Source: Climacium dendroides (lineage: Eukaryota > Streptophyta > Bryopsida > Hypnales > Climaciaceae). From it: 64,000 bases of DNA. The notes below the pieces were generated by a model. That model ran no database searches, was not told the origin of the DNA, and saw nothing but the letters and a program-made list of their open reading frames with translations. Location: positions 1,984,001 through 2,048,000 of the forward strand of contig OX467090.1 in NCBI GenBank assembly GCA_950106755.1, given 5' to 3'. Positions 21,959 through 55,460 of the stretch are shown piece by piece. The position numbers and the translations under genes are program-made. How positions within the stretch are numbered: the stretch's first letter is position 1; each line of letters begins with the position of its first letter.

Positions 21959-24507
21959 GAGCATCCCCACCCCCACTCGCCCAACTTGGCCGGGGGAGGT
22001 TTGGGCAGGGCCGGGAGCCTAGGACTGCCCCACTGTGGCACTGGCCCTTTTTTTAAAAGCACCGGGCTCGCTCAAATACCTCCGGGGTACGTTAGGTGTC
22101 AGTGAGCAAGGCGTTTTTTGTGGAGCCCGGAGTTGACAAAGAGGTAAGCATTTTGCATTCAATTTCGTGTTGAAATTTTGTTTTGTGGAACCATGGCAGG
22201 GCGCAGTCGGATAGCTGTGAGAGGACCCAACTGAGAGTCACAGTTTTCTAAATTGGCTACAACTTTTGATTGGATTATTAGAATAGTCTAAGATTTGGTA
22301 CATATTCTAATAGTAGTTGAAGGCACTTGTATTTAAATTTGTGGGGGTCTTGGACACTTTGATATTTTTCTATGATTTTTTGACTGATTTAGCTCTTTAT
22401 TTTTTGAAGGATAGGCTTAGTCTTTTTTTGAATTGGTGTTTGAAATTTTTTAACATAATTTCAACTTTATTTCAATTATTTGCAGATGCTTATCTCAACG
22501 TTTCAAACATTGGGATTGTCATTTTTGAATTTTCTAAATTTTATTCAAGCATCTAAATATGTTGTGACATTTGATTCAAAATGATTAGAATAATTCCTAG
22601 AAGGCTAAAGCATTTAAGCAATCAATGACTATTTGAAGATAGTAAAATAGTTGATAAAAAAACAAAAATAAATTATTTCATATTTTTAACTACCACATGT
22701 ACCTTCTTTTCAAATTTCATGTAAAATTAATGTACAATGCAAAAGTCATGAAAAGAAATCAGAAATCCTAGACAAAGGACCAAGAAAATTTATAGAATTT
22801 CTTGAAATTATTCTATAAACATGTGAGTCTATGTCATGTTGGCTCCTTTTAGAGTCCACAAGTGTTGGATGAGGTCACCTCTCAATCCATAGTGGCTATC
22901 AACATCTTCTATCTCTTTAGTGCTAGTAATTAAGTCATCAAATGTTAAGCCTCTACCATATGGCATAGACGTACCCCTCTGCAACTCTACCACTATGTCC
23001 TCAAGGCCATCTACATCCTCTTCATCCTCCACAATCATGTTATGGAGGATGCAACAAGTGAACATGATATCTGCTATAACCTTCATACTCCTTTGCCGAC
23101 ATGGATTTCTGATGATAGCAAAGCGGGCTTGAAGAACACCAAATCATCATTCCACATCTTTTCGAACAGCCTCTTGTCGTTGTGCAAAGTACCTTTTCTT
23201 CTCTGTGGTTGGTAGGTGGATACTTTGGATAAAACAAGCCCAAGTCGGGTAGATGCCATCGGTCAAAAGATAATATCGATCATACTGGCAACCATTGATT
23301 GTGAAATGCGTGTCACGATGCTCACTAGTCAACATGTTATGGACCAATGGAGAGCGGTCCAAAACATTAAGGTCACTATTAGACCCTGGAAGTCCAAAAA
23401 ATGCATGCCAAATGTGCAAATCCTTAGTGGCTATGGCCTCAAGAATGATAGACTTCTTGCCTTCTCTATCCCCAAAATCTCCTTGCCAAGCCACAGGACA
23501 ATTTTTCCATTCATAATGCATGCAATCTAATGAAGCAAACATACCCGAAATCCTCGAGCTTCATTCAAAGCCAAGTGTTTGGCAAAGTCTGCTTCTGTCG
23601 ATTGCCTCAAATGATGCTCCTCAAAAATGGCCCGAATAGCCACACAAAACCTTTTCATAGACTCCATTGCGGTTGACTCACTTGTGCGACAATATTCGTC
23701 AGTGGCATCTGCACAAACACCATATGAAAGCATACGCAATGCAGCAGTCTTCTTCTGATGAGGAGACAATCCCCAAAACCCGAATGCATCCCTCTTCTGC
23801 ACGAAGTAAGAGTCATGAGCACAAACTTTGTCCATGATATACACAAACAATGAACAACGCATTCTATAGCGTCGTCTAAACAATGAAGCTCTATATACAA
23901 GAGATTCACAAAAGTAATCCTTCATCATCCTATCATACATCCCATGACGATCTCTATCCACATTTGGGGCTTTTCTAGGTTGAGATCCATCCACAACAGA
24001 AGGTCTGGTAAATCCATTGCTCACCCTAAACCGTAAACCCAAATTCATGTTAAATGCCAACTCCTCCTCCTCATCACTATCGTCAAAAACATCTCAACTA
24101 GCAAGTAACCGAGCCCTCTAAGCATCCATCTCTCAACAATCACCCAAAAATTTAGAAGAAAAAAGAACAAGAGAACAAGAGAACAACAAACTCAAAGCTT
24201 GCAAGAAAAGAGCAAAAAACAAGCCACAGTCAAAACACCGCTCAGTCACCCAACAACAAAATATCAGCTTAGTCATTCACCATAGCAAAAAAATCTAATT
24301 AAACTTAATGACTGAGTTAATGAGCTTACAGGGCTAATTATACTCGATTGCATCAATTGCCCCCTCTGACCAGAAGTATCGGGCTCCCAATCCCCTCCAG
24401 ACCAGGCCACAGTGGACTACCTAGGAGTCCCCGTCCCCAGAGCATCAACCGGGCACGCTAGAGGAAGCCTGCCGTGGGCATTTGGCCGGCCCACGGTGGC
24501 GATGCTC
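21959..24507 (-). mobile_element. PIF/Harbinger element 1 (2.55 kb)
   Basis: Left end GAGCATCCCCACCCCC and right end, reverse complemented, GAGCATCGCCACCGTG form short terminal inverted repeats. Each is flanked by the same 3-bp duplication, TGA (21956-21958 and 24508-24510). The interior holds a single minus-strand PIF transposase pseudogene. The Myb/SANT partner gene normal for PIF elements is absent, and about 870 bp left of the transposase is AT-rich and non-coding, so the element is internally deleted or the partner was lost. Three-bp duplications and a DDE nuclease are established features of this superfamily. Confidence 0.85.
22829..24129 (-). pseudogene. PIF/Harbinger transposase (HARBI1-like nuclease), broken
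   Basis: DDE-type transposase that would cut and join element ends in the nucleus. Readable blocks are RRRYRMRCSLFVYIM, ALRMLSYGVCADATDEYC, ESTAMESMKRFC, then MFASLDCMHYEWKNCPVAW (first catalytic Asp), GLPGSNSDLNVLDRSPL (second Asp), LLTDGIYPTWACF and QEAVRKDVE (catalytic Glu). The tail reads LHNMIVEDEEDVDGLE. All three acidic residues remain. Damage: a frameshift near 23540, two adjacent stops replacing Arg-Cys just after the Glu motif (E**FGVLQ, where element 2 has ERCFGVLQ), and two stops in the N-terminal leader near 24100-24120. Start placed at the ATG of the MDA leader at 24129. Confidence 0.85.
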
Positions 24508-32048: not shown

Positions 32049-32929
32049 ATCCTGTCTTTTGGGTAGATATTGACATACAAGATTTTTTCTGATTTATTTT
32101 CTGATTTGAATCTCTATACTAATTTCCCATAGGTATGAGATTTTAACCTAGATAGAAACTGAACAAATTTTGTGCAGTACATCTCATCAGGTGTGACACC
32201 TCCCCCAAGTTCTTATATTTTACAGAAGGTATTCCACCAGCAAACAATATGGGTTATATAAAAAACTTTTGAATGTATGTATTCTTGTGTATTTTCATAT
32301 GTAATATGTATAAATTAAATGTACGTATTTGTATTTTGTATTTAAACTGAAAAATGAAATCAACGACATGGAGGGGGTTAGTTTTTTTTTCAGGATTTAA
32401 TCTAACGGCTTCTGTTTTTTGGAGGGGTGGGTGGGCACAACGGAGATGGTTGCATCTTTTCAATGGATAGTAACTGTGCCCCCTGCCAACAATGATCCAG
32501 ATTATAAAAAAGAAAAATCTACAGACAAGAAAAAAAAGTTGTAAATTAGTAATTGAACTAACTTAGAGCATCCCCACCAACTCTTCCGTTTCTCTATCTG
32601 TTTACTGAGAGCATCTCCTGCGGTCCTCTTAGTTTGAGCCTGTCAAATGGGTTTTGGAGGGAAGAATGGCCAAGTCAAGGGCTATTAAAGTGGGCCTGGT
32701 TAAAAAATCTCTTGTGGACCGGAGTGAGAGGGCCAGTAAAGAACTTTTTTAACAACAGTTGGCCCATGACTTGGAGCCACAAAGGTAGACCTAAAGCCAC
32801 CGTGGCTACCGTCAAGAGCCGCATCCTCCACAGGCTGCTACAAAGACAGGGAGTTTTTTGCGAAGCTTTCTTTCACATGCTGTGTCTACTGAAACCCTAT
32901 TTTTTTATTGTTGCTTTGTGTGAGGCTCA

Positions 32930-34346
32930 ATGGACCTAAATCGATGGAGGCAGATGATGGAAACACAATTGAAGGCAGCTCATGAGGATGACAAACAAGA
33001 AGATGCAATCAATCGTCTTATTGTGGATCAATTGCAACAAAATCTTGAAGCTGATGCCGAAGTTGTGAGGGGAAGGCACGGAGGTTCCAGGGAAGGGAGA
33101 TCGGCCAACGTGGTTCGCAATCGAGCACAAGGGCATAATCGAATGTTTCAAGACTACTTTGCTGAAGAGCCGGTATACTCTAATCAATTATTTCGACGTC
33201 GTTTTAGAATGCGGCATGAATTATTTTTGAGAATTATGAATGAAGTATGTGAGCATGATTCTTTCTTCTTGCAAAAAAGGGATGCCTCAGGGTTGTTTGG
33301 TTTATCTTCTATCCAAAAGTGCACAACTGCACTTCGCATGTTGGCATACAGAGTTGCTCCGGATGCAACTGATGAATATTGTAGAATCGGGGAATCCACA
33401 GCTATGGAAAGTATGAAGAGATTTGTAAAAGCAGTGAGGGTTGTCTTTGAGTCGCAATATTTGAGACAACCAACAAAGAGGGACTTGGAATACCAAATGT
33501 AAGTCAATGCTGATAGGGGCTTCCCTGGGATGTTTGCATCGATAGACTGTATGCACTGGGAGTGGAAGAATTGCCCCGTAGCTTGGCAAGGGCAATTTCA
33601 AGATAAGGATAAGAAACAGTCAATTGTACTTGAGGCCATCGATCAATCTCTTAGGATTTGGCACGCCTTTTTTGGCCTTCCAGGTGGAAATAATGACATC
33701 GATGTGCTAGATCGTGGGCCATTTGTGAATAATATGCTCTGTGGTGAATCTCATGGAGTCAAATTCATTGTAAATGGTCATGAGTACCCTCGGTACTATC
33801 TTCTTGCTGATGGCATATATCCAGCATGGTCTTGTTTTTGTAAAGACTATTCAAGAACCGCAAGACGAAATGAAATCACATTTTGCAGGAGCTCAAGAAG
33901 CAGCCCGAAAAGATGTAGAGCGATGCTTTGGTGTTCTACAGGCTCGGTGGGCAATAGTTCAAAATCCATCACGACATTGGGAGATTGAAACTATTCAGGA
34001 CATTCTCATAGCCTGTGTTATCATGCACAACATGGTTGTAGAGGACGAGCTAGAGCTAGGACACTTGGAGAATTTGTTTGAGGATTTCAACCCAATGCCA
34101 ATGCATAGGGATTTGACCTACGGTCAATTAGTCCAACAGACTCTAGAAATAGAAGACCAAAATGTCCACTACTCATTGAGAAGAGATCTCATCAAACACT
34201 TGTGGAATACAAAAGGGGTACCCAATTTTGAGATTGCAAAAACTATAATGCTATTTGTATGCCGTAGCTCAAACCATACCACATTTAAACAAAATCCAAC
34301 CAATTTGCAAAAAACACAAAAAACAAAGGATCCACACAAATTCTAA
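32930..34346 (+). pseudogene. PIF/Harbinger transposase of element 2, broken
   Basis: DDE nuclease of the HARBI1 type. After a coiled leader (MDLNRWRQMMETQLKAAHED) come FRRRFRMRHELFLRIMNEV, ALRMLAYRVAPDATDEYC and ESTAMESMKRFV. The catalytic blocks follow: MFASIDCMHWEWKNCPVAW (first Asp), GLPGGNNDIDVLDRGPF (second Asp) and QEAARKDVERCFGVLQARW (Glu). The tail reads IMHNMVVEDELELGHLE and LRRDLIKHLWNTKG. Two defects are visible: an in-frame TAA at 33500-33502, and a one-base frameshift in a T5 run at 33835-33839 just before the Glu block. The last ~38 codons to 34346 run past the conserved HLWNTKG end and may be read-through. Otherwise the protein is full length, so this is a young corpse or an element with sequence errors. 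Confidence 0.88.
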
Positions 34347-34458
34347 AAATATGACTAATAAAATGAAATATGATTCCAAAGACTCTAGAAATAACTCACA
34401 CAACCAATCAAAAAATAATACAAAATCACATACAAGTGCTACGAACACATTTTAAGAA

Positions 34459-35105
34459 ATTAGTCAAATAAATCATAGTTCACGAAATCCACCAAAATTC
34501 CAACCTTTCCTATTCCAAAATTTCACAAAAACTCCCCCGTACCTTGCATGGATCCCCAAAAAGCACCTTCTGAAAAAAATTGCACTCACGACCGCCAACT
34601 CATATTTTTTAAAAATAAATGGCAAAAACAATCAAAAAATCATAGAAAAATCCAGAAGCGTCCAATGCTCCCACAAATTGGCACACATGAGCTCCATAGG
34701 CTCTAGAATATGTCCACAAAGTCTAGGCTAATTTCAAAAACACACTCAAAAGTTCTAGCAAAGTGTGTTGAAGCTTACTAAATCTTTTTAAATCTCAACC
34801 TTTTCTATTCTAGAATTTGTCAAAAACTTATTAATATGAGTTTTGTGGTTTTAATTTATCAATGGAACTCATTTGATTCAAAGAAAAATTTCTTTTTGTG
34901 TTTGTGCATTTTACTATGTGTATTTTCTTAAAGTCATATTGAATACTTTTATGAGTAGTTGACTATTTTCTAATGACTTTCTTTTATACGAATTTGCATA
35001 GGGTTAGGAATGAAAGTGAGTGGGAATTCCATTTTTATTCTAAACTAAAGGGAAAATGTAAAAGAAGCAGAAGTAGTTATAGTCGTTGTACTTTTTTAGA
35101 ATTGG
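34459..35105. repeat. Left arm of the long inverted repeat flanking the dioxygenase gene
   Basis: About 647 bp whose reverse complement matches 37041-37676 over nearly the whole length. Shared words include TTGCACTCACGACCGCCAAC (with one difference), CATGAGCTCCATAGGCTCTA, TTGTCAAAAACTTATTAATA, AAAGAAAAATTTCTTTTTG and AGGGAAAATGTAAAAGAAGC. Its outer 270 bp also match a third copy at 37731-38030 in reverse. Confidence 0.85.
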
Positions 35106-35276
35106 AGGGTATAGTAAGATCTTAGAATTATAGAGTTACTATGAGAAAGGACATTTTCAACAATGCAATGTATTATAAAATTTTGATATTTACATATATA
35201 AATCTTACAATTGTTGGCTTAAGCTAAAACCATTTTTATTAAATTACTATACAATTCACTACAAAAATCTAAATGT

Positions 35277-36870
35277 CTATTGTCCATGACTATTTTGTGG
35301 ATCTATTGTATACCAATACTTTTTATGTGGAATTCCTGTAGGTTTATCAGTTTGAGCTATCAATTGATTCTCTACTCTTGTTTTCAACCACTTTTTGTTT
35401 GTAAGGGCTAATCCCAATGTATAATTTTCTATTGCATTATCCCTTGTATCAAAGTGGAGGGTTCCATGAACATATTTTTCACTTTTAATAAACAAACCGG
35501 GTCCATTATTGGTTTGAAATTTGTATAGATATTGGTGAAGGGCAAATTGTCCTTTTAAGGGATCTCCAGATGTGAACCATGTTATTATGGAGGATTCTAT
35601 ATCCAAAGGATCAACATGAGGCTTGATGAAAGAATTCTTACTAAAATGCAATTGACAAACATTTGTTGGACTTTCATTAAGACCAACAAATATATGACTT
35701 GTATTAATTGATTGTTGATGAAAGTGATGATCAATTTTTTCACCAAATGTTGACATTGCACTTTTCCATATATTACTTGCAATTTCATCTCCAATGTCTT
35801 TGAATGCCTTTTCTTGATGAAGTGATACCTTTGATGAGTGATATGGAACAACATTGCCAATGGCATTAATCCCTGCATTTGAAGAATATCCATGGCTAAT
35901 ATTTTTATAGAGTCCACGTTGCGAAGTTTGGGCTTTCTTTTTTACTTTTCTTTCCATAAAGAGGAGCCCCTTCATAATATACATTTGCTAATCTCGATGT
36001 AGAGTTATATGTGCCTTCACTTAACATTCGTGGAACATAAATTAAAATAACATGATCCAACTCCAAGTTCTTAGTGTTAAGAGTAACTTTGGCACCATCA
36101 AAGATTACAAGAGATTTTGATATAGTGGGTACTAAATTATCATCTTGAAATACATCTTCCCACTTATACTCATCATTATTATATTCACTCAAGTTCCAAT
36201 ATGGTGTTGTATTAATCATGATGTTATTTTGATTTGGTATATTTGAATAGACAATGTGCATTGTTATTCCCATTGGTAAATTTAAAACATGACTAGTAGA
36301 GTTATATAATGTGCAATCTAATTTCACTTCACATTGTATAACTAATCCCAATAGTGCATTATCCTTTTTTGTAGCAATATAGTTTTTGCAACCTTCAATA
36401 AATGCATGATAATCTATTAGGGATTGAATTATGAACCCTCGACAAATCCATAAATTCAACATAGGCTTACAATGAATTTTGTAATCCAAGTCCATATGAT
36501 TTGGACATAATTTACATCTTTTCCCTTCATCTTTAAATCTACCAAGGCAATCGTTACATATTTTATGACAATCATATATAATTGTACCTTTGGTTAGATC
36601 AACATCTTCACCATCAAATAACTTTCTAAAAATTTGATTTTTCAATGTAAATTCACAAGGAATAACATACATTATAAAATGACGCAGTCGCTTACGATGA
36701 GGAAAATAAGTACTTCCAATGGATCCAATCTCATTAAAATGTAGTTCGTATTGATTGTCATCTTCCAAAAGTCTCCTCCCTTCTACTTTGGCATATTCAC
36801 GTGGGGTAGAATTTGTGTGACTCTTCAAATTTTTGTTTCTAAGTCTTTTAGGATTTGATGAAGAAGCCAT
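35277..36870 (-). pseudogene. TET/JBP-like 2-oxoglutarate/Fe(II) dioxygenase, one frameshift
   Basis: The N-terminal frame (36870 to about 35938) carries a Cys/His cluster, with Cys at about residues 101, 105, 108, 119, 122 and His 125 (YDCHKICNDCLGRF, then RCKLCPNH), likely zinc-binding. A one-base shift in a run of six T (35938-35943) leads into the C-terminal frame. This has the dioxygenase signature: FIKPHVDPLD (the HxD iron motif), then about 48 residues later YVHGTLHFDTRD (distal His and a candidate 2-oxoglutarate Arg). FALHQYLYKF and GPGLFIKSE fit the barrel strands between them. This order matches the double-stranded beta-helix of TET/JBP-type enzymes, which oxidise methylated bases; activity here is inference. 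ATG chosen at 36870 (MASSSNPKRLRNK). Combined length is about 530 residues, with no intron seen. The homopolymer shift could be a sequencing error, in which case the gene is intact. Confidence 0.6.
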
Positions 36871-36969
36871 TGTGCACAAAAATCCAACAACTCAAGTAAA
36901 TATATAATTTGTAGAACAATAAATGTGCAAGAGAGCAAGAAACATATACAAAAAGAAAACTAAGCTTCA

Positions 36970-36977
36970 TTATATAT
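36970..36977 (-). promoter_or_regulatory. Candidate TATA box for the dioxygenase gene
   Basis: The minus strand reads TGTATATATAATG about 100 bases before the chosen ATG, a fitting position for a plant TATA box with a short 5' leader. A second TATATA word lies only about 30 bases before the ATG. Confidence 0.35.
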
Positions 36978-37040
36978 ACATAGTTAATAAAAATAAAAGT
37001 AATGTTCTAAAGAGAAAGCAATGCTCCAAAGTAAAAGGAC

Positions 37041-37676
37041 AACTCTAAAAAAGTACAACGACTACTTCTGCTTCTTTTACATTTTCCCTTTAGTTTAGAA
37101 TAAAAATGGAATTCCCACTAACTTCCATTCCTAACCCTACGCAAATTCGTATAAAAGAAAGTCACTAGAAAACAATCAACTACTCATAAAAGTATTCAAT
37201 ATGACTTTAAGAAAATACACATAGTACAATGCACAAATACCAAAAGAAATTTTTCTTTGAATCAAATGAGTGCCATTGATAAATTAAAACCACAAAACTC
37301 ATATTAATAAGTTTTTGACAAATTCTAGAATAGAAACGGTTGAGATTTAAAAAGATTTGGTAAGCTTTGACACACTTTGTTAGAACTTTTGAGTGTGTTT
37401 TTGAAATTAGCCTAGACTTTGTGGACATATTCTAGAGCCTATGGAGCTCATGTGTGCTAATTTGTGGGAGCATTGGACGCTTTTGGATTTTTCGATGATT
37501 TTTTGATTGTGTTTGCCATTTATTTAAAAATAAATATGAGTTGGCGGTTGTGAGTGCAATTTTATTTCACAAGGTGCTTCTTTGGGATCCATGCAAGTTA
37601 TGGGGAAGTTTTTGTGAAATTTTGGAATAGGGAAGGTTGGGATTTGGGGTGATTTGTTGAGTTGTGACTAATGTGA
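37041..37676. repeat. Right arm of the long inverted repeat
   Basis: Reverse-complement partner of 34459-35105, with small indels. The inner boundary lies at the word CAACTCTAAAAAAGTACAAC. The outer boundary runs into a perfect hairpin at 37664-37712. Confidence 0.85.
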
Positions 37677-37712
37677 CTAATGCCCCTTGGAGGCATTAGT
37701 CACATTAGTCAC
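37664..37712. repeat. Perfect 21-bp-stem hairpin at the arm junction
   Basis: GTGACTAATGTGACTAATGC plus one C is followed by the 7-base loop CCTTGGA and then the exact reverse complement. The stem itself contains the word GTGACTAAT twice. It lies exactly between the right arm and the third, partial arm copy. Confidence 0.9.
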
Positions 37713-37730
37713 AGTTGACTAGATTAGCCA

Positions 37731-38030
37731 CAACTTTTAAGTGTGTTTTTGAAATTAGCCTAGACTTTGTGGACATATTCTAGAGGCTATGGAGCTCATG
37801 TGTGCCAATTTGTGGGAGCATTGGACGCTTTTGGATTTTTCTGTGATTTCTTTTTATTGTTTTTGCCAATTATTTAGAAAAAATATGAGTTGGCGGTTGT
37901 GAGTGCAATTTTTTTTAGAAGGTGCTTTTTTGGGATCCATGCAAGGTATGGGGGAGTTTTTGTGAAATTTTGGAATAGGGAAGGTTGGATTTTATAGGGA
38001 TTTTTTGAACTATTTTTAATTTAGCTAATA
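37731..38030. repeat. Third, direct partial copy of the arm
   Basis: Matches the outer ~270 bp of 37041-37676 in the same orientation, from AAGTGTGTTTTTGAAATTAG to GGAATAGGGAAGGTTGG. At its far end (GATTTTTTGAACTATTTTTA) it matches the outermost left arm better than the adjacent right arm does. It may therefore be the true right terminus, with the copy at 37041-37676 being internal. Confidence 0.75.
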
Positions 38031-38355
38031 TATCAAAGGGATATTGGAACTAATGACGTAATCTTGATTTTTTCTTGTAGAGTCATTTTGGGGATTGTTT
38101 TTTGAATTTTTCTTCTCTAGTTTTTTTGTATTGATGTGTAGTGTGTTTAATTTTTGTACTTTTTTAGAGGATGGTTTATCTCTTTTTGTTTGTTGTTTGT
38201 TTTTAGAGTATTGATTGGAGTTTATGATTCTAATTTTTTTTTTGTTTTCAATCTTTTTCTGTTGATGTTTTATAATGTTTCTTTTATAGGTTTTGATTAA
38301 TACAATAGGTTTGCTTTGGAAAGCTTGATAGAAATATAAATAATTTTTTTTATCA

Positions 38356-39925
38356 TCAATAGAACTGTGAATCGTTCAAATTGAATGGTACATTTGATTG
38401 CTGATCTATACTCATGTTCAAATTCTCCTCTTCACTATCAACTTCTGTACTATTTTGGCTTGTTGTTGGATTATGCCTATGCATCATTCTAGGATCTATA
38501 GTACCAACTACTACATTTTGTGAGTAGGGAGAGAGTAGCTCCACTTGTGAGTGATCAAAATGATATCCTGAATGGCTTGGTGTTGATCTTTGTCTAGTTT
38601 GGTGGAGCTCATTGTCTCCCCAAAAGTCATCTTGATGTTGCTGTGTCATCCTATTGTGGTGGTTGTTGATATTGAAGCTACTATGTTGTGGCTGCAAGTA
38701 TCTTGGGGTGGCAAGTTCGAACTCCTCCCTTGCCATGTACTCGTCCTCAATGTTCACTTGTTGTGATTGAAGATTCACATGTTCTTGCCAATTTTGCCTC
38801 GGTGGGAAAAGAAAGCTAGAAGTTGTGGCAAGTGGGGGAGGAAATGTTCCACCACGGGAATTGCTTCTTGAAAGGCCTGTTGCAGAAGCACCCTCCCTAC
38901 TTGAATTCACCACCCCCACCCCACTTACATGTTGTTGGTCTGCATTGGCCATATACTCTCCAACTCCCACCGCTTCCTCACACGCTTCTCCAATTGCAGC
39001 TACAGTTGCCGCAGTCTTTGCAGCATCTATTTTTTTTCTCTCTTCCAATCGATATTTCAATTTATCCATTTCCTCCCTTCTTTGGAGTCTAAGGTATTCA
39101 TAAGCTTCTTCACTATCTAGGGTTGCCTCAGACACTAAAAAAACATCAAAACAGATTGGTCAAGTAAAATACCGGACTTCTCTCGTGTTGCAGCTGCCAA
39201 TTCCAACGTTGCATCTGCTTGAGCCCGCATTGCTGATTCTCGACCACGCACCATCCGCTCATCTTCTTTTGCATGTCGTGAACCTTGTGGCCACTTCAAA
39301 GGTCTAAAGCTACGCTCAGTTGGGGTGGAATTTGGAGTGGACACCACTGGAACTTCGACCCCCGAAGACGAACCACGATTGAGCTCCTCTTCTGGATCTG
39401 TCACCACGCTCTGAGCTCTTCTTGGCATTGTACTAGTTCGCCACACCTCTTCCCACACCTCAGCCCAACGAGGACAATCCTTCAAAATGAGCCAACACTC
39501 AAAATAGACAAATTTCTTCTTCTCTGGATGCTTGTGTTGATATAAGCTAAGAGACCAAATTCGCAAATCCTACTCCGACATGCCACTTATATCCAAGTCC
39601 TTCACTTGTTGATAAACCCCACTAAATTTGGAAACATCGTGCTTGATGCAACCCCACTTGCTCTCCAAGCTCCTTGCCGGCCGCTCTCCACTTCCTTCAG
39701 GCTTGTATTCGTTGTAGTGATGGGCAATACGCTCCCAAAAATTCCCATTCCTCTGTCCAATACCAACTATAGGATCCTGCGAAATACACAAAAAGATCTA
39801 CACAATTGAATCTCCTCATCAATGATGTATTTCTTGCGCTTCTGTGCTGGTGTTGCTTGTGTCGCCCGTGCCGCAACTACCGGAGGGACGCTGGAGGGAG
39901 AATTCAAAGACGGTAGGGCGGCCAT
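38356..39925 (-). pseudogene. Myb/SANT-like PIF ORF1 (DNA-binding partner), broken
   Basis: Companion protein of PIF/Harbinger transposase, known in the family to bind element ends and help nuclear import of the transposase. The trihelix/Myb-SANT region reads KRKKYIIDEEIQLCRSF, then SQDPIVGIGQRNGNFWERIA, then ARSLESKWGCIKHDVSKF. A Pro/Ser linker and an Arg/Glu-rich coiled coil follow (YEYLRLQRREEMDKLKYR). The tail is Gln/Asn/Ser-rich and ends in NLNDSQFY. Defects: a frameshift near 39790 after CRSF, an in-frame TAG after SGMSE near 39568, and a frameshift in a run of seven A at 39137-39143. Start placed at the ATG of MAALPSLNS. It faces the transposase gene, as in complete PIF elements. Confidence 0.8.
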
Positions 39926-40674
39926 GGAAAAAACTTGCGGCTTCCACGGTGGCAATTTTGTCAACTATTTTGCCCTTGACTAATTAAAATACCGAATCCA
40001 ATGATGAAGAGGGGCCGTGAAGGTCCCCTGTAGAAATGGAAATTCTAGCAGGGTAGAGACAAAAACTAGAGGCCCTGCACCTCTACATCCCCACCTACAG
40101 TGCTATTGGGGATTGGATTTTACACGGCCGTTCAAATGTACGTTGGGAGGGCCGTTCCAACGGACTGCAGGAGATGCTCTGAGCTTGGGACATCAAATAG
40201 GAATGAGACCTCGCGAGTTCTCCATATGAGCCTCTGGATACAGAACTGAAGAAGAGTTTTACAGAAATTTGTGTATTTTAGAGATACAGGTTTTGGATAA
40301 AGGTTGGTGTGTTAAAATTTTTGTATCTCTATCTACATATGAGGTCCTCTCCCTAAAGCTTTAAGGATACGGAACTCACTGGTGGGTGTGGGAATGCGAT
40401 CCCACATGCTAGACCCATAATACTAGCATAGGACGGAAAAATTCAAAAATTGTCTCTTTCAGAAGGAAAGTTTTTGAGTTCTCCTAGGAAGTTAAGGCAA
40501 ATTAGGAAAACCGGATTTCCGGATCCGGAAAAATTTCATTAGGGCTAAAAACCTGAAATCCGGAACCCTAGAAAGTTCCGGATATCGGATGACGGCGCTG
40601 GCCCTAAACCGGAAACCGGATCCGTACTAGGGATAGGGTTTTGCCGCCAAAACCTGTCCCGTACATCGGGCCCG

Positions 40675-40682
40675 TATAAGAG
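40675..40682 (+). promoter_or_regulatory. TATA box upstream of the gag-like ORF
   Basis: TATAAGAG lies about 200 bases before the ATG at 40878 and is followed by a GC-rich leader. Position and sequence fit a polymerase II core promoter. Confidence 0.45.
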
Positions 40683-40877
40683 GGGGACTGTAGCTGGCCG
40701 CGGGCACACTTATCCTCTTTCTTTTGTTCTTCCGCCGGCGTATTCCGTTTTCCTCGCTTCGTTAGAATTCCGGTAGACTGAGGGACTGTGTGAGTTGCGA
40801 TCGTGCAGGGGTTACCGGAGTGACAGTTGTGAGCAGAGATTTAGGGAGAGATTGTGTGAGGATTGATCGTGAGCACA

Positions 40878-42988
40878 ATGGCTTCTAGGGCAAGCCGGCG
40901 GAAGTTGAAGGACTTGCCTGAGGATTCAGAGGACGAGGCGCCGGCACCTATACCTCGACCAAAGACCATCCTGGTGATGAAGGTGGTTCCGGAGGTTCCG
41001 ACGGAGGAGGACCGACTGGCGCGCCTACGGGAGCATCTCCGCAACATGGGGTGTGACGGACTCCTAGAAGTGCCGTGGGGAATCCGAGAGGAGAGCCTGG
41101 TTTCGGACATACTTCGTCCGGAAATTGGTATCTTGGATACTACCATTCGGGCAAGACCAGACCAGTGGACGACTGGACGGTGAGCACTTGGCGGGCTGTC
41201 TACAAGTTCCGGGAGGCGCCGGACAAGGTCATGGAGAAGAATCAGGAGGTGATGGAGGGAGAGTTCCGGGTGCCCGCCAATCCGAAGGAAGGTAACCAGG
41301 TTTCCGACCTGGTGAATCTGGAGTACCGGGATGTGGTAGCGTTTCTCAACCCTATCCTCCATCCCACCAAGCCGCGGCGAGTAGTAGCGAAGGTAGCCTC
41401 CACCATCTTGGGGACCCTCCAGGGAAAGATGATGATGGATTGGGCAGCCATCATCCACGAGCTAGTCGGAGACTTAGTGCGTGCCCTCCGGTCCAGAAAG
41501 AAGAGCCAGAGTCCTCTTCCGGCATATTTGTCTCATTTGTACGCCCACCACTCTCTACTCAAGGCGAATGAGGAGAGTGCGTACCAAGACCTAGTCCAAC
41601 TGCAGCAGTACGGAGGAGAGGAGCCCTCGCCTCGAGACGGACCGGACGATGAGGACACTGAGGAAGAGGAGCCGGTCTCTCCGCTAAAGAAGAAGAAACG
41701 GCGGAATAGGACGCCGCCGATAAGTCCATCAGAGGAGCCTCCTACACCGGAACCACAGGAAGAGGTTCAGGAGGTAAAGACGGAAACCGGACCTGTTCCG
41801 AAGGGAGTCCAACCATCCTTACAACTGGTTGGGCCGATACGACCGCACACCGTCGCCACTCAGGCTGAGGCCGAACCCTCCCGGACCCGGATGATAGAGG
41901 TGGAGGAGAGGGATCGGACAACCATGCGATTGGGAGGGTCGCCCCTAGAAGACATCCAGGAGATGGCTCAGCATCTGGTGTGACGGGTAGACGATCTCTT
42001 CCAGATCTGCGAGAACTATGATGGAGCCCTCAAACGAGTGTACCGGAAGATGGCGCTAACCGCCCGGAATGCCATTTTCCGGAGGACGGATGCATTGGTG
42101 GCAGCGGAGCAACAAAACAACCTCCTCATAGCAGAACAGAAGAATTTGGTAACAGAGCTGGGGGCGTTGCGCGTAGAAAACCGGACGTTGCGAGACCAAG
42201 TCCGGAACTCGGAATCCCGCTGTGTGGATTTAGAGAGCACCATCCGCACCGCTAAGGAGACAGCTTGGCTCACAGAAGAAGCTCATCGCCGGTAGATAGC
42301 GGCCTTATGTGAAAGTGTAGTTCAGCTCTGGAGCTCTCTAGAGGTCCCGACAGACTACATCAACAAGGCCCGGCTGTTTGAAACTAACCTCGATGCAGCC
42401 GCCAGCTCAAGCCGGGTTCCTATCGTTAAATGCTTACTGGAGCAGGCAAGACGAATGGATACATCCCGGGCCGTGATGAGGGAGATGCTGGAGTACATTA
42501 TGTCCACAGAGTCGGATCCGGCACCTCAATCTCCCCCGTCAACGCAGACTTTGGTGGTTCCGGAAAGCAGCGATCCGGAACCTATGGTTACGGAGGTTTC
42601 ACCGGTGGTCCCGGTAAATCCAGAACTTTCACCACCAGTTGGAAGACCAGAAGAAGTGGACTGGGGAGCAGTGGTACCTCCGGGAAGTGAAGACCTGCTG
42701 CCGGTGACTCCGACCATTGACCTGACGGGTGCTTCTCCGGAAGTTCACGCCAGACAGACAGTACAGTCTTCTCCGCGTCATAAGAAGACTCAGAAGGATG
42801 CAAGAGGGAGTCCGGACACTCAGGTAGTCGGAACTAGGAGTGTAGACAGGGACACCAGTATTGTGGAAATCCCAAGATGGGGCCAAAGGGGTCCGAATCT
42901 GTTTTCTCCGAAGGGTAGTTGGAAAGAGGTAAAGTTGGATCTTTTGAAGGACTATGTTCCTCCTAAAGATCCAGATTCAAAAGAATAG
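40878..42988 (+). pseudogene. Gag-like / plant-mobile-domain-like protein, broken
   Basis: Starts MASRASRRKLKDLPEDSEDE, then RLREHLRNMGCDGLL and RPEIGILDTTI. After a frame change near 41150-41180 it continues as STWRAVYKFREAP and VVAFLNPILHPTKPRRVVAK, then ILGTLQGKMMMDWAAIIHEL. An acidic and basic linker (DEDTEEEEPVSPLKKKKRR) and proline-rich stretches follow. The same frame then runs through two in-frame stops (41981 and 42293) into a coiled coil (LIAEQKNLVTELGALRVENR) and a Pro/Ser-rich tail ending at 42988. The block around NPILHPT to IIHELVGDLV resembles the putative plant transposon (plant-mobile/gag-like) domain; I hold this loosely. Total about 700 codons. There is no enzyme domain, so it was probably a structural protein of a non-autonomous element. 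Confidence 0.55.
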
Positions 42989-44601
42989 TATACAGTAGTG
43001 TAGTATAATACCGGAGTCCGGCCGTCAAAGCCGGAAAAATAGGATCTGGAATCTTCCGGAAATCTAGCGAACCAGTAGGAATGCTTTGTAGGATTTTTAG
43101 GATGACGTTAGTCTTAGTATAAGTAGGATTTTTAATGACCTTTCTGGTCATTCACAACCATCTCATAGTTTCAGCATTGTACCTTTTGCGGAGTTTAATT
43201 CTAAAGTGTGTTGGAGTATCCAATCTCTTATCTTTCTTGTGTAAGGTATATGTTTGTGAGAGGTGTGAGTCCGTTCTTGCGTTTCCGGGACTGAGAACTT
43301 ACCTTGTGTGGCAAGAATCGATGTTGTGAGAGTATCCGGATGTATTAACTTGAGGGGGAGATCAATCGGATGGTTCCGGCAGTAAGGTTAGGGTAGTACT
43401 GCTCGGATGCCAGTATAGCCTGCGTGTAGGATATAGCCCTAGGGGAAAAGGGGTATCTGAGAGGCTGCTAGCAAACTTCCGTGTACGGAGGTATTGCCGG
43501 ACGTGCCCAAATTTCGGATTGCCGGAATTCCTCGTAGAACAGAGTTAAGCCCCGGCACAAGCCCAAGAAAGTACAGGAGAAACCAGCCGGTCGACAGGAG
43601 GCTCAGTGTTCGGTTAAAAGTTAGAATGTCGTTGTAGTTCTTGACCGTCCCTCTGTGACCTAATCCGGAAGAGCTTCCAGATTTGTGAGGCGATGAAACA
43701 GGAGGATACTTCCGGTCCATGAAGAATTAGGTTGTTGTTAGTATTAGAGAGAGAGAGTAAAAGAGAGCGTGTTTCCGGACACGGTAAGCATCCGGACGGT
43801 GGATCTGGCCACTCGTCATCCAAACCCAGGGATCCCGGAAGGGACACTGAAACGGTTTCCGGATCCTTCCAGAACCCACTAGGCACTAGTGTCCGGACCA
43901 GACCGAAAGTCCGGAATAAGCCGACGGAGAGAAAAGTGAGTGCTTAGACTGGGATAGCCTATGAAACTGTAATCCACAAGTCCTCGTGGGAACGATTCCG
44001 GAGCGGTTTACTCTAAGAAGGCCTTTGGTGTGAATTAAGGGCTAATTGGAGGAATACTGGTCCGACTAATCGCTACAGTGGGGATGCTCTTATCCCACCT
44101 TAAAGCTGGCTTCAGTTCCTCCCAGCTGGCTAGTCTTTGAATCAGAAGGGTTTTGAACTGTTCTTCTTCAGTCAAATTGTTGGGGTCTTGACTTGCAGTT
44201 CCCATTGGACATGGAAGTCTCACCAACTCAACCCTCATAACCGAATAAAGAGTCGCACTTGGAGAATAAATAGTCACACTTGGTGTTAAAAGAGTGTTGT
44301 TATTGAAGATCTTGGAAACAAATTTAGACCTATTTCTAGATTGGATTCCCATTGCAAACATCCCCTAATACCAAGTGCAAACATACCTTAAGTTCATAGG
44401 TTAATTCTTCTTCTGCTCAAATCCAAATACATAATAAGGTATGTGCACCTAAAATGGACTACTAATAGGTGACAAAATTTTATTTACTTAAAAAATAGTT
44501 TATTTAGTTGCCCAAGCTGTCTGTTGAACAATGAAAACTACATATCATGTAGTAGCTTTTGAACCTTGTAGCTAAAAGTTATGAAAAATATTGGGCCTTA
44601 A

Positions 44602-50007: not shown

Positions 50008-53000
50008 CTATTCCGGAATAGTAATAATCCCCGCTCGAACTAAGAGAACCTTTAACTCGTTGAAACTATAGCTTGGTGCATGAATGAATTTGTCATCCTC
50101 CATGCTCATCTTGCAGAAGTATCGATACAAGTAGTACAAATGCTTGCAATTAACATATTGCTGACGTCCTCCAATGGCAGATACAACCATACTTACAAAG
50201 TCTGGACATGTGCAGGAAGGGAACATACCCATTGTAATGCGATACACATTTTTTTTGTCATCTGCTCCTGTCTCCAATGATACAATTGCACCTAGACCTG
50301 GTAATGGAAGCAAGGTCACTCCTATGATTTGGCCTTTGATATTCCTTGCACTTTCCCACTTGTTCCGTTGCTCTATTGTGGGGGCATTTGCAAGTCTACG
50401 AATACTACGATTGTTCCTCACTGTTGGATACACATCTGCATTTGATGGCGGTGCATGATCATATAAAACAGTCTGAAAAACCTTCGACATACTGAAAATT
50501 TTACGTGGTGATAAAGTTGGTCGCTCCTGCAGACAGAATCCCGCATGCTGCAGGAGCAAAGTCTCTTCCCGACTTAAATTGGTCCCACTTAAAACAGGCC
50601 AAATGTCTGGCAAACTTGGCCAGTCAATGACCCACTTCCGCTTTGTACCTTTCACACAACGTTCAATGTCATCTGAACAAAACCAGAAGTCACTTATCAC
50701 CTCTCTCCTGCTTCCGTAATCTTCTTTTCTTCCGCGATAAGTTGGAGCTGGTGTTCCCTTCCGTCCCTTCGAGATTTTTGCAGTGCATTTCATATTTGAC
50801 CCCCGCTGTTGAGCATAACATCTTGCATTCGATTTGTGGCTGATCCTTGCAATGTGCCACTTAGATGTATCACAGTCACTTTCAAATGCAACTGTAACAT
50901 GATTGAAGTCATTTGTCCCTTGTTCTTTTCCTTTGTCACTAGAAGACTCCACCCCAACCACAGATGACCTTGTACGAATACGAGGTTGCGAAAAATTAAC
51001 CTTGTCCGGTCGATGTGAATCCCCTGCATCACCAATAGGTACGTCCAACTTCCTCTTTGTGCTTCCAAAGATTTCCTCTCCCTCCAAGTGTGGTACACGA
51101 ATTCCAAAACCTTCACATCCAGGTAAGGTATTCAATGCCTGTGCCATCTTCTTAGGGTCTCCACTTCGTCTAGCAGCTCTCAACTTCAACTCACCTTTCG
51201 ATGGGCCACATCCAGATGCATGCCCTTTTAAATAAGCTCGATAGTTAGTCATTTGCATCCACGCACGGATGCTGTCATCGCATGTAGCATCAAATAGATT
51301 GTTTCCTCGATTGCCAGACATTTGGAGCCACTTATTGTGAATTGTCTCCGACAAATTGCAAGAAGGCATATCCGCCATCTCTTCCAAATTCAAATCCTAC
51401 ATTGCATCACAAGCAGAGAAAAAAAAATTGCAGTCAATTCCATACATTACAATCTTCCGCAATAAAAAAAAGGACTATTACATCCAGTAATTTAATTTAG
51501 TTTAGGGTAGAATTTTGAAGACGACAAAATCCTTCATGCTATTCTTCATAAACGATTTCTCTATGCGCTTAACTACTAAAACACCAAGAAAAATATTAAC
51601 AATTAATACCATTTCCTTTAATTCTATTCACCTCCCTTTATTTTAGATCATTTACGTATCCTATTTTATTACTAAAACGAAGACCATGTCCTTGGGGTAG
51701 TCTTCTATATCTACTCTAATGTACATGATACAGAAATGTTGTACTCACCATTTGCATGAATCCCCCCCATTGCCGATATCGAAAATGCCAAAATGCTAAC
51801 CAGTGATCTAAGTGATGAAGCGCATCTTCAGTTGCTGCTCCAGATGATAACCACCATGACTTAATTGCTAGATATCGTGTCTCCGCTTCTTCCATTGTCT
51901 TCGAATCTTTGTATTGTTTACAAAGTTTTGTATGCTGATGTTGGAATTCCTCCTTGATGTATTTTTGAGTATGCTTCTGAAGTGAAGTGCTCCAATGCAG
52001 TAAGCATGTTCGCTCACGATTCTCCATTCTGTCACTAGCTGAACCATTTCCATAGACTATACGAACAGCATTCCAATTTGCCATAGCGCTATCTGCCATG
52101 AATCCCTTGAAGTTTGGGTGATGTACTCCGTTTCGTGACATGACGGCATTCAAACACTTCCAAAATTGCACTTGAATTTCAGTATCTTCAGATTGCATAT
52201 CACAGACTGCAATGGTCATTACCTTCTTGTATTGTGCATCATAAACATGACATGCCATTGTTGTCCACTCCTTCACACGCTTCACATGGTCAAACATCAT
52301 CCAAGCATTCTCCAAATTCCCTCCAGGTTGCATGCGCTTCACCAAATCCACTCCACTTCCAGGACCTTCAGTAAACATCTTGAAAATGTAAACTTTCTCC
52401 TTTCCCTGTCCTGGAAATACGCTGTCGTGAATGAATTCAAACTTTGATTCCTTCTTCATGGTCATGATGTTATCAATTACACCTCCTCCATTGCTTGAGC
52501 GAAATGATGATATGACATTTCTAACATTCGGACTGCTTAAGAATTCAAAGCGATCCATCACTTCCTCCAACTCTTCTCCCTTCAACATTTTTTTTTCCCC
52601 TTGACCATCATGAAATAAATAGTTCGTCAAAAACTCTTTGCTTGCAGACAAAGCAATTGCTGAGTTAGTGGCCTTTGGTGTCTTAGCCACTTCATCTGCT
52701 AGAAGTCCACAAATTTTTTTTGCAGAATCCCTGTACATTCCTTTTGCAACAGGGTGAGTGTGGTCTCCAAAGTGAATTGCAGCTCTACTCATATGTGGAT
52801 TAGCACTATAGCAATAGTAAATCCGAGCATCACACACACTTAGGCATGATGGTGAAATCTTGCACACTTTGCAAACAAGCGTACAATCTTTTGAAGTATT
52901 GTTTCCTACTTCAAAAGGAAATGTTGTGTAGCCACTCCATTCTGTCTCATTGCGTTTAGAAGTCCTCTTCACATAATCACAATCTGGATTCTCACAAGCA

Positions 53001-53908
53001 AGATGACCTGCACAATATGACTTACGGAACTTCAGATTGTCAGAGTTCTGAATGTTTGTAGTCACCAATTTGCACCAAGGATGTCCATCGTATCGCTTAT
53101 CCATTCCTTCCAAGTTCTTCGCTGCTGCTGAAGAGGACGACAGTCGACAAGGAGGCAATTCGAAAATGACATTTCCATTGAATATGGCTGGAAGAAATTG
53201 CACGCGGTGATGCTTCATACTGTTGAGGTCCATTGTGGATAACTCGTTCCTTGAACGATGCATAGATGCCAATCTCTTCAGGCATTCTATTATACTCAAT
53301 CGACTGATTGCACTTGGATGCAACGGGGGACGTGACACAGAAGAACGCCCTGGACTACTGGATAGGGTGTTCTGCACCGAAAATGGACTTCCGTTTTCAT
53401 TTAGAGCAGCCTTGTTAGGAAGCAATGGCTCTAACACTTCTAACTGAAGAGATTCTCCTGATGAATCGCTAGACAACTCGATAACAGAATCTTCTTTCTC
53501 TAGTTTCACTGCACGAAGAACAGAACCATGTGGAACAGCTCTAGACACTTCTCGAGTCGAACTAGGAGATAATACATAATTAACATACGGCATATTGACA
53601 GTAGAAGTATCTGAATGCCGACTTGGGATTTCTGATGATGAAGATACCAAACACAAAGGAAGACCGTAAGCTCTATAGTTCCCCTTCGATAGATACCAAC
53701 AATGACCACTTTCTTCTTCAGACTTCACCATAGGAATTGACTCTTGCACTTGTCCTGACAGTGACATCCTCTCTTCTTCAACATAAATGGAAGATTCTAC
53801 AAACTTGAAACGAACATGTAAGAGATGGCTCAATACTTTTGCTCGTCCTCCTTCATTAACCGGAAAAATAAGTGGAACTTCATATCCATCTACACGAATG
53901 GAAGCCAT
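50008..53908 (-). CDS. MULE-type transposase-related protein: WRKY-GCM1 zinc region, DDE-like core, SWIM finger
   Basis: Two exons: 53908-51749 (720 codons) and 51396-50008 (462 codons plus stop). The intron is 352 bp, phase 0, with donor ATG|GTGAGT and acceptor TGTAG|GATTTG. The joined protein has about 1182 residues with no stop or frameshift. A Ser-rich, disordered-looking N-terminal 270 residues is followed by a Cys/His region at about 275-390 (WCKLV, SYCAGHLACENPDCDYVKR, CKVCKISPSCLSVC, HFGDHTHPV), as in WRKY-GCM1 fingers of MULE transposases. The core at about 540-720 contains HVYDAQYKKVMTIAVCD, FKGFMADSAMANWNAVRIV and RTCLLHW, fitting the MULE DDE fold with its C-x2-H insert. A SWIM finger (CTCPDF, NCKHLYYLY) lies at about 1115-1139. 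ATG chosen at 53908 (MASIRVDGYEV). No terminal inverted repeats were found, so it may be a domesticated transposase or an active element whose ends I missed. Confidence 0.85.
51397..51748 (-). other. Intron of the MULE/SWIM gene
   Basis: GTGAGT at the 5' end and TAG at the 3' end on the minus strand, with a phase-0 junction. Splicing removes the stop codon that otherwise ends exon 1 near 51716 and joins two long open frames. Confidence 0.85.
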
Positions 53909-53917
53909 GATATACAA

Positions 53918-55460
53918 ACCATATGCAAAAACTACACAAGATGTAAGAGTGTAATCCTTATAGGTCAGTGCTGAACCACTTCTTTTTCTACGGTATAATA
54001 ACGTACATGGAATTTGAATTCCACCTCAAATTAGGAGGCGTAGGAATGGACGACCCTCCTTTCTTAGTTACTATTATTGAATCCAAATTTTTAGGTAGCC
54101 ATTTTAAAGCACTTATTCTGCACCGCCTTCCTATAATACATTCACAGCATCTCAGAGGCTATGTTCGGCATCATAATTATGTGTCCACATCACCTATGCA
54201 ATAGAAAAATGAAGCACCTACTTTTGAGCTGCTTCAATTAGAATAATATTAAACGCAAACATGTAGCTATGTCAGTTAGTTCCAAATTGTGTGTAAATTA
54301 AGATTTCAGAATATGGTTTAGGAAAGTTCACTCATGGTTATTTTTGATATTTCTCTAGTATGAGATGGCATTTTCAAATGGACAATTTCAGCGCCGACGT
54401 TATCAATTAATATCACAATGCAGCAAAATTACCTCACATTCAGTGGTTGGATGAAAATTCAAAAATCAGGTGAAAACATAGTATAAAAAAAAGGGCGGGG
54501 TTCACAATATCAATTGCACCACCCAGCCTTAAGTCTCCTTGTCAAAGCGCATAGCTCTCCCTCTTTCTTATTTCAATCCTTTCTTTATTCCGTGCAATTG
54601 TATAGATATTGCTTTCACTTGCATTTTGAGTTTCAATGACTGCGACTATGTTTTCAGTTTAAAGATTCTTCAGCGCTTGTTTTCAATTCTTAGAAGATAG
54701 TACAAACTAGTACTCATTCTCACGTTGATCTCATTTGGGCATTAGAAGTCATCTTTCAATTCTACAGCTTCGGAGTTCATTCACCGGAAGAAGCCACGAA
54801 CTACCGTGACTGTCGTCAACTTAAACTGGAACATTTTTTTTGATTAGGAGCGTTCATCAATCATCCATCCTTGAAGTCTAAGTTCTTAAAGTACTTTTAT
54901 ATTAGGACTCCTGTTCTTCTGCAACGTCTTAGGACTTGGTCATTCTTTTCTTCATGTGGAGAATAGATATTTCATTAAAATGATGCCATTTTAACGCCAT
55001 TTTTCTACTCTTTTTCTACAAATGGTGTACATTTAGAACACATGCTCTAAACTGATGTAGGACTGGTGTACATTTTAGAACACATGCTTTAAACCTGCAA
55101 GTGCCAAGTTTGCGGAATAATGCCGTTTTAACGAAATATCCGTTAAGGGTTGTGCTAAATCATCAATTCCTCATTATTTTTTCGATTGATCGCGTCTCTT
55201 CAACACTCACAGAATGTCTAGCTTCATTCACACGTGGCAAGGTGAGGGGGTTGGTAGTTTAGTACTTTTTGGAACCCTGACAGTTGTTGTCCATACCGGT
55301 ACATCTGTGCTGGGCCGGTTCAAGGGTAGTCAATTACCAAACCCACAGTCCAAGTTTTCCCCATAACGCTGTTTAACTTTCTTAAATGATTTCACGTCAG
55401 CAAGCCATTTCGCGTGCCGGACACTTCTAAAATGGCTTTTGTTGCTTTCACGATATGTAG
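53918..55460. other. Intergenic DNA upstream of the MULE/SWIM gene
   Basis: No gene is supported. A direct repeat (GGTGTACATTTTAGAACACA followed by TGCT-TAAAC) occurs at about 55023-55052 and 55070-55098; the first copy lacks one T. The promoter of the leftward gene should lie near 53920-54300 but no clear TATA box was chosen. Confidence 0.45.

Follow-up and report, generated by a model that had tools for sequence, protein, structure and literature searches.

In a 64,000-nucleotide stretch of the genome of the moss Climacium dendroides (contig OX467090.1, positions 1,984,001 to 2,048,000; hereafter the window), we found a complete PIF/Harbinger transposon with a gene for a TET-like protein between its transposase gene and its Myb-type gene. 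Genes of this TET-like family lie inside Harbinger elements with terminal inverted repeats (TIRs) and 3-bp target-site duplications (TSDs), and they are met again next to the transposase in families of these elements that have diverged. The explanation that we consider probable is a PIF/Harbinger family with an extra gene whose predicted product, an iron dioxygenase of the TET/JBP type, would lift silencing of the element by oxidizing or otherwise modifying its methylated cytosines. The relationship to TET/JBP enzymes is supported but not proved by sequence comparisons; the protein would act on 5-methylcytosine (5mC), and the benefit would be escape from silencing.

Harbinger elements carrying a TET-like gene

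The window element and its genes are as follows (positions are those of the window):

32609..40179, no strand: complete PIF/Harbinger element, 7571 bp, termini GAGCATCTCC...GGAGATGCTC
32606..32608, no strand: left TSD, TGA, directly outside the left end
40180..40182, no strand: right TSD, TGA, directly outside the right end
32924..34343, plus strand: Harbinger transposase gene, broken (PF04827, E = 3.3e-45 on 33503-33988)
35280..36870, minus strand: TET-like gene in two frames with one break (open reading frames 36870-35905 and 35987-35280)
38356..39923, minus strand: second Harbinger gene, Myb/NAM-associated type, split into frames (PF14303, E = 1.6e-7 on 39135-39569)

The Pfam matches place the PF04827 transposase and the PF14303 gene on opposite sides of the TET-like gene, within TIRs and a TGA duplication. 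The initial annotation, which had put the gene between the transposase and the Myb gene of a PIF element, was thus correct on this point. The transposase has an in-frame stop at 33500-33502 and a frame change further on, leaving pieces at 32924-33499, 33503-33985 and 33774-34343, and the TET-like gene has a single frame break in an A-rich stretch within the frame overlap. With neither its transposase nor its TET-like gene in an intact frame, the window copy cannot be autonomous.

The assignment to PIF/Harbinger does not depend on this copy alone. The transposase of locus L011 matched PF04827 at E = 1.1e-78 and PF13359 at E = 2e-12, and the second gene of locus L022 matched the NAM-associated model PF14303 at E = 4.5e-11; no Myb/SANT model as such gave a match. 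TIRs with 3-bp TSDs were present in window element E2 (TGA) and in four elements bearing the TET-like gene, for which both ends were located: the window element (7571 bp, TGA), X009 (9286 bp, TAA), L010 (5935 bp, TAA) and X022 (9504 bp, TTA).

Protein searches yielded 26 relatives (P0002-P0027), with successive searches returning 6, then 21 (15 new) and then 7 (5 new). They include a full-length relative of 546 aa with 51% identity (P0003) and two that are broken at the motif (P0020 and P0021). Matching stretches in the window's own genome (412.6 Mb, 123 contigs) number at least 85; one copy often accounts for several of them, and for large families such counts are lower bounds. Three copies have full-length open frames: C1:44388432 (537 aa, X009), C1:18592027 (553 aa, X017) and C35:29707043 (532 aa, X022). 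In X017 the transposase (435 aa), the TET-like gene (553 aa) and the Myb-type gene (277 aa) are all open from stop to stop, and all three motif regions sought in its transposase are present. No relative of the family alignment A1 or of the window protein was found in viral contigs, and relative P0025 gave no match in prokaryote contigs.

We then compared 20 neighbourhoods picked among the better of the 85 matching stretches, a non-random sample. A Harbinger transposase and/or Myb-type gene was present in ten of them (L009, L010, L011, L015, L016, L017, L022, L023, L024 and L026), and in two others (L020 and L021), which have no Harbinger gene, a Harbinger-type end lies roughly 0.8 kb away from the TET-like gene. 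Even relatives at 30-33% protein identity adjoin Harbinger genes, and seven of the ten Harbinger-bearing loci lack the long inverted arms that flank the window gene (described below). The TET-like gene is therefore a resident of a Harbinger lineage and not of the arms, with Harbinger as its vehicle.

Several results count against so general an association. Eight of the 20 loci have neither a Harbinger gene nor a nearby element end. Wider queries recovered Harbinger genes near none of the ten other loci (0/10) and in none of six extra flanks (3.1 kb on each side of three loci), and a search of the eight remaining loci for the end motif returned only a lone one about 4 kb off, in L013. As for X017, the left end of the element was not reached, and its Myb-type gene is presumed to belong to the same element.

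Across five families, identities of the transposase and of the TET-like protein do not run in parallel (73% vs. 37% for X017/X022, 67% vs. 78% for X017/L015, and 54% vs. 68% for X009/L011). The orientation of the gene also varies, being opposite to the transposase in the window, L009, L010, L017, L023, L024 and L026 and the same in L011, L015, L016 and L022. Together, the discordant identities and the variable orientation suggest exchange or inversion.

Some loci have an unusual arrangement. At C34:28203600-28222400 (L015 with its flanks), a TET-bearing Harbinger element forms a large inverted duplication whose two 8.9-kb halves are 99.5% alike, and L011 has a similar mirror arrangement. At L027:261-2543, an open frame of 761 aa encodes a DUF7869 protein (E = 2.4e-45). 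The TET-like copy some 1.6 kb away has no Harbinger genes beside it, so a second kind of transposon may carry the TET-like gene. Several minus-strand frames at L025:7134-9844, beside another TET-like copy, had no Pfam match at E ≤ 0.01; judging from their appearance, they may be transposase-like.

Resemblance to TET/JBP dioxygenases

The TET-like gene of the window contains the following conserved sites:

35610..35618, minus strand: HxD motif with two iron ligands, within KPHVD; aligns with the NgTET1 HxD
35601..35603, minus strand: Asp at the aligned position of NgTET1 Asp234 and CMD1 Asp350, which contact 5mC
35466..35468, minus strand: distal iron-ligand His (YVHGT), aligned with the distal His of NgTET1
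about 36505..36570, minus strand: Cys/His cluster, weakly RING-like, conserved in the alignment of relatives

The KPHVD, the YVHGT and the Cys/His cluster that had been described for this minus-strand gene were all located. The N-terminal cluster was rejected as a true RING, its matches to PF13639 (E = 0.083) and PF14634 (E = 0.072) being sub-threshold.

Profiles of the catalytic core ranked NgTET1 or CMD1 first among solved structures, at E-values between 0.04 and 0.43. The core profile A4 (117 columns, 10 rows) left out the degenerate P0020, P0021 and P0022 as well as rows with little coverage of the core, and profiles A6 (8 rows) and A7 (12 rows) were built from diverse rows of our choosing. 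Against 177,635 PDB sequences, ranks 1 to 3 for A4 were 5cg8 and 4lt5 (both NgTET1) and 7cy4 (CMD1), with E-values of 0.43, 0.56 and 1.5. CMD1 came first for A6 (E = 0.23; next unrelated match 0.45) and for A7, the widest profile (E = 0.04; next unrelated match 0.39). Other 2-oxoglutarate (2OG) oxygenases are numerous in the PDB, and none appeared in the A4, A6 or A7 lists. The core aligned to NgTET1 over 55 columns without a gap, and in both the distal His follows the HxD His by 50 residues. When scored against the core profile, NgTET1 exceeded 20,000 shuffles of itself; AlkB was unremarkable in this control.

These results have to be set against others that speak for caution. None of the five TET E-values is significant individually, NgTET1 is absent from the A6 and A7 lists, and whole-length or single-sequence queries (P0001, A2, P0025 and A3) retrieved no TET chain from the PDB at E ≤ 10. 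Alignment to NgTET1 with hhalign gave E-values of 0.0012 and 0.002, with probabilities of 20% and 14%. Searches of Pfam, PHROGs and NCBIfam returned a best E-value of 0.02 and no oxygenase among the matches; Pfam's silence says little, since it likewise fails to match NgTET1. AlphaFold gave no usable model for the whole protein (A1) or its catalytic half (A3), with predicted local distance difference test scores of 29 and 35, and a Foldseek comparison of the second model with the PDB returned noise only. Of the checks proposed at first, structure prediction thus yielded no usable model and the HMM search no named family. The initial designation of a TET/JBP-like dioxygenase survives as the best reading of a protein that travels with a transposon; it does not extend to membership of a named family, and the PDB E-values behind it are weak.

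Residues of the active site were counted over all 37 rows that matched the core at E ≤ 1e-5, broken copies included, taking letters only and omitting gaps; some copies contribute more than one row, in pieces, and L015 contributes two, one for each half of its duplication. The iron triad is strongly conserved (HxD His in 29/33, HxD Asp in 32/33 and distal His in 29/29). At the position of NgTET1 Asp234, which bonds N4 of 5mC (as does Asp350 of CMD1), 30 of 33 rows have Asp and three have Asn, the residue found there in human TET2 according to one of the structural accounts (PMC7854593, PMC11040006; TET2, PMC7854593). Ser238, described there as stabilizing the oxidized C5 group via water (PMC7854593, PMC11040006), is matched by Ser in 31 of 32 rows. 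The A7 rows alone gave 11/12 for the HxD His, 12/12 for its Asp, 11/12 for Asp234, 12/12 for Ser238 and 12/12 for the distal His.

A different picture, and one less favorable to a canonical TET enzyme, emerged at the positions reported to anchor 2OG (Arg224 and Arg289 of NgTET1) and to stack on the base ring (Phe295; PMC7854593, PMC11040006). Ser stands in place of Arg224 in 32 of 34 rows; among 26 rows, the Arg289 position is Thr in 13, Lys in 12 and Ile in one, and the Phe295 position is Thr in 13, Val in 12 and Lys in one. The hhalign register agrees with the profile alignment. Iron and base contacts thus look kept in the alignment, unlike the co-substrate site. Activity could still persist without canonical 2OG binding, because the TET homologue CMD1, which has both 2OG-anchoring Arg, is reported to use ascorbate and to be unable to use 2OG (PMC7854593).

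Judging from these alignments, we regard it as quite likely that the protein is a TET/JBP-type iron enzyme. As the two 2OG-anchoring Arg are not kept, we call it TET-like rather than a proven TET/JBP member. It is conceivable, though a good deal less likely, that this iron-dioxygenase relative has lost oxygenase activity or has a substrate other than DNA (e.g., RNA or protein) and serves the transposon otherwise. Such a protein would fit the differences from NgTET1 at both 2OG-anchoring Arg and the 5mC-stacking Phe, the weakness of the TET similarity and the additional Cys/His cluster, but not so readily the retention of the iron ligands and two 5mC-side residues in nearly all rows, broken copies included, nor the fact that, among solved relatives, enzymes of 5mC in DNA score best.

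Inverted arms, selection and neighboring sequences

The TET-like gene of the window lies between two long inverted arms, with a third, partial arm beyond:

34459..35104, plus strand: left inverted arm, from its alignment to the right arm
37040..37681, minus strand: right inverted arm, from its alignment to the left arm
37724..38037, minus strand: partial third arm, corresponding to the outer ~300 bp of a full one, from its alignment to 34451-34762

The arms, of about 645 bp, are 92% identical across 648 columns (34459-35104 vs. 37040-37681), and an ungapped 473-nt stretch of them is 95% complementary, well above chance. The partial arm (37724-38037) is 89% identical to 34451-34762 across 314 columns. 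This arrangement agrees with the initial annotation. Where the right arm meets the partial arm, a 51-bp palindrome (37663-37713, GTGACTAATGTGACTAATGCC...) is 90% self-complementary.

A genome-wide search for the arm, set beforehand as a check, located five full arms belonging to three elements, always beside the gene and with Harbinger genes in all three; the arms do, therefore, flank the gene elsewhere. The outer ~300 bp of the arm is a dispersed repeat in the genome, partly in the form of inverted pairs distant from the gene. Among the 20 neighborhoods, L009, L010 and L016 had arm matches longer than 100 bp, and L014 a 47-bp piece. The extra partial arm of L009 is on the opposite side of the gene compared with that of the window, so arms duplicate and shrink. 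Confined in full length to one subfamily of three elements, the long arms are flanking repeats and likely not what moves the TET-like gene.

The initial annotation had proposed instead a separate unit, moved by its arms and hitchhiking in a second transposon. That the arms are terminal repeats of such a unit, a Mutator-like (MULE-like) or foldback element that carried the TET-like gene into Harbinger, seems to us very improbable. The gene is flanked by two arms both in the window and in the copy at C1:44.39 Mb, 54-bp arm pieces lie about 1 kb from two more gene stretches (C38:22317416 and C37:5296762), and long inverted ends would suit a foldback element. Seven of the ten Harbinger-bearing loci with the gene are nevertheless armless; the full arm is limited to three elements with Harbinger genes, its outer part also occurs apart from the gene, and no TSD was seen by eye at the arm ends in the window. 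Neither the 20 neighborhoods nor the genome-wide arm search revealed gene and arms moving together independently of Harbinger. We consequently rejected the arms as terminal repeats of the carrier.

We next turned to selection on the gene. Of 15 pairs compared, five diverged pairs (X022/L025, X022/L027, L025/L027, X022/L019 and L015/X017) had ratios of nonsynonymous to synonymous substitution (dN/dS) of 0.14-0.18 over 289-355 codons, with dS values of 0.9-2.4 that are thus partly near saturation. On the basis of these low ratios, the protein is maintained by purifying selection between diverged copies. Among other pairs, L019/L018 had a dN/dS of 0.43 and X009/X017 one of 0.275, and X017/X022 and L015/X022 were saturated. 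Less favorable are the six comparisons of young copies, with dN/dS of 0.6-1.5, and the fact that only in L015/X017 among the five low-dN/dS pairs do both copies lie beside Harbinger genes. Comparisons with the window copy include some out-of-frame codons, as its frames overlap. The pattern is the usual one for a transposon gene, constrained while moving and neutral after a copy lands. That the gene is instead a captured host fragment or a passenger without a role in transposition is the least probable alternative, for although many copies are broken, the window's included, diverged copies are constrained, three copies are open over their full length, and the gene recurs next to the transposase in diverged elements.

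The window contains further features outside the main element. A second Harbinger element (21959-24507, TSD TGA) has broken transposase frames and no TET-like match; downstream of its transposase, an arm-like stretch (22253-22404, 73%) corresponds in place and orientation to the left arm of the main element. A G+C-rich block (54%) at 40400-43000 adjoins the main element and has long frames and more CpG than its surroundings. Perhaps another transposon lies at 50008-54025, where there are two long minus-strand frames, one of 462 aa with a SWIM zinc finger below threshold (E = 0.099) and one of 769 aa, and a 131-bp piece at 57649-57779 matches eukaryotic large-subunit ribosomal RNA (RF02543, 61.7 bits).

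Proposed role and relation to known systems

We predict that the TET-like protein most likely erases methylation on its own transposon. In the mechanism that we propose, the element would encode three proteins, the transposase, its Myb-type partner and a TET-like protein that would oxidize or otherwise modify 5mC on or near the element. Host glycosylases of the DEMETER/ROS1 type could complete the erasure by excising 5-hydroxymethylcytosine (5hmC), and silencing would be relieved as a result, in line with what has been proposed for TET-carrying transposons of fungi (PMC12730594). ROS1, DME and DML3 are reported to excise 5hmC (PMC10573277), so a plant could complete erasure without TDG.

The closest parallels come from fungi, where Kojima (2025) described TET genes in eleven lineages of DNA transposons, with gene exchange between lineages, and where the TET-carrying elements are thought to escape methylation (PMC12730594). 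Among them, the PHISTA elements of rust fungi are Harbinger-related and carry a TET/JBP gene and a gene for a third protein besides the transposase (PMC12730594), a plan that the moss elements share with their TET-like gene. As characterized in that account, PHISTA has a 2-bp TA TSD and a third protein without Myb/SANT, whereas the moss family has 3-bp TSDs (TAA, TTA and TGA) and a third gene of Myb/NAM-associated type; the moss elements thus fall outside the PHISTA definition. Their TET-like protein, too distant from known families for Pfam, would also represent a different TET subfamily.

Among single proteins, CMD1 is the best PDB match of the widest profile, with the HxD, the Asp at His+5 and the distal His aligned. 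It is described as an algal host gene product that makes 5-glyceryl-methylcytosine from ascorbate (PMC7854593), whereas the moss gene is transposon-borne and its activity only predicted. NgTET1 (PDB 4LT5 and 5CG8) shares the spacing of the iron ligands and the residues Asp234 and Ser238, but its Arg224, Arg289 and Phe295 are not kept in the moss family. The anti-silencing proteins of plant Vandal/MuDR elements are likewise plant transposon proteins that regulate their own epigenetic silencing; in the account cited here they are described as sequence-specific regulators and not said to be dioxygenases (cited in PMC12730594).

Our survey of open-licence papers found no plant transposon with a TET-like gene. 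Plants are not known to undo DNA methylation with TET-like enzymes. Their active demethylation is described as proceeding through their own glycosylases, the animal TET/TDG pathway having evolved separately (PMC10573277). A bolder reading, which we hold to be rather unlikely, is that plants harbor a transposon-borne TET lineage across deeply diverged Harbinger families, with CMD1-like non-canonical 2OG anchoring, ascorbate or another co-substrate and a new mark on the 5mC of its own elements, the gene being swapped between lineages as an anti-silencing module. If the predicted role of the TET-like protein in relieving silencing is true, the moss elements would be a second, differently built instance of TET-carrying transposons, in a kingdom with glycosylase-based demethylation, and one possible source of the 5hmC that has been reported in several plant species (PMC10573277).

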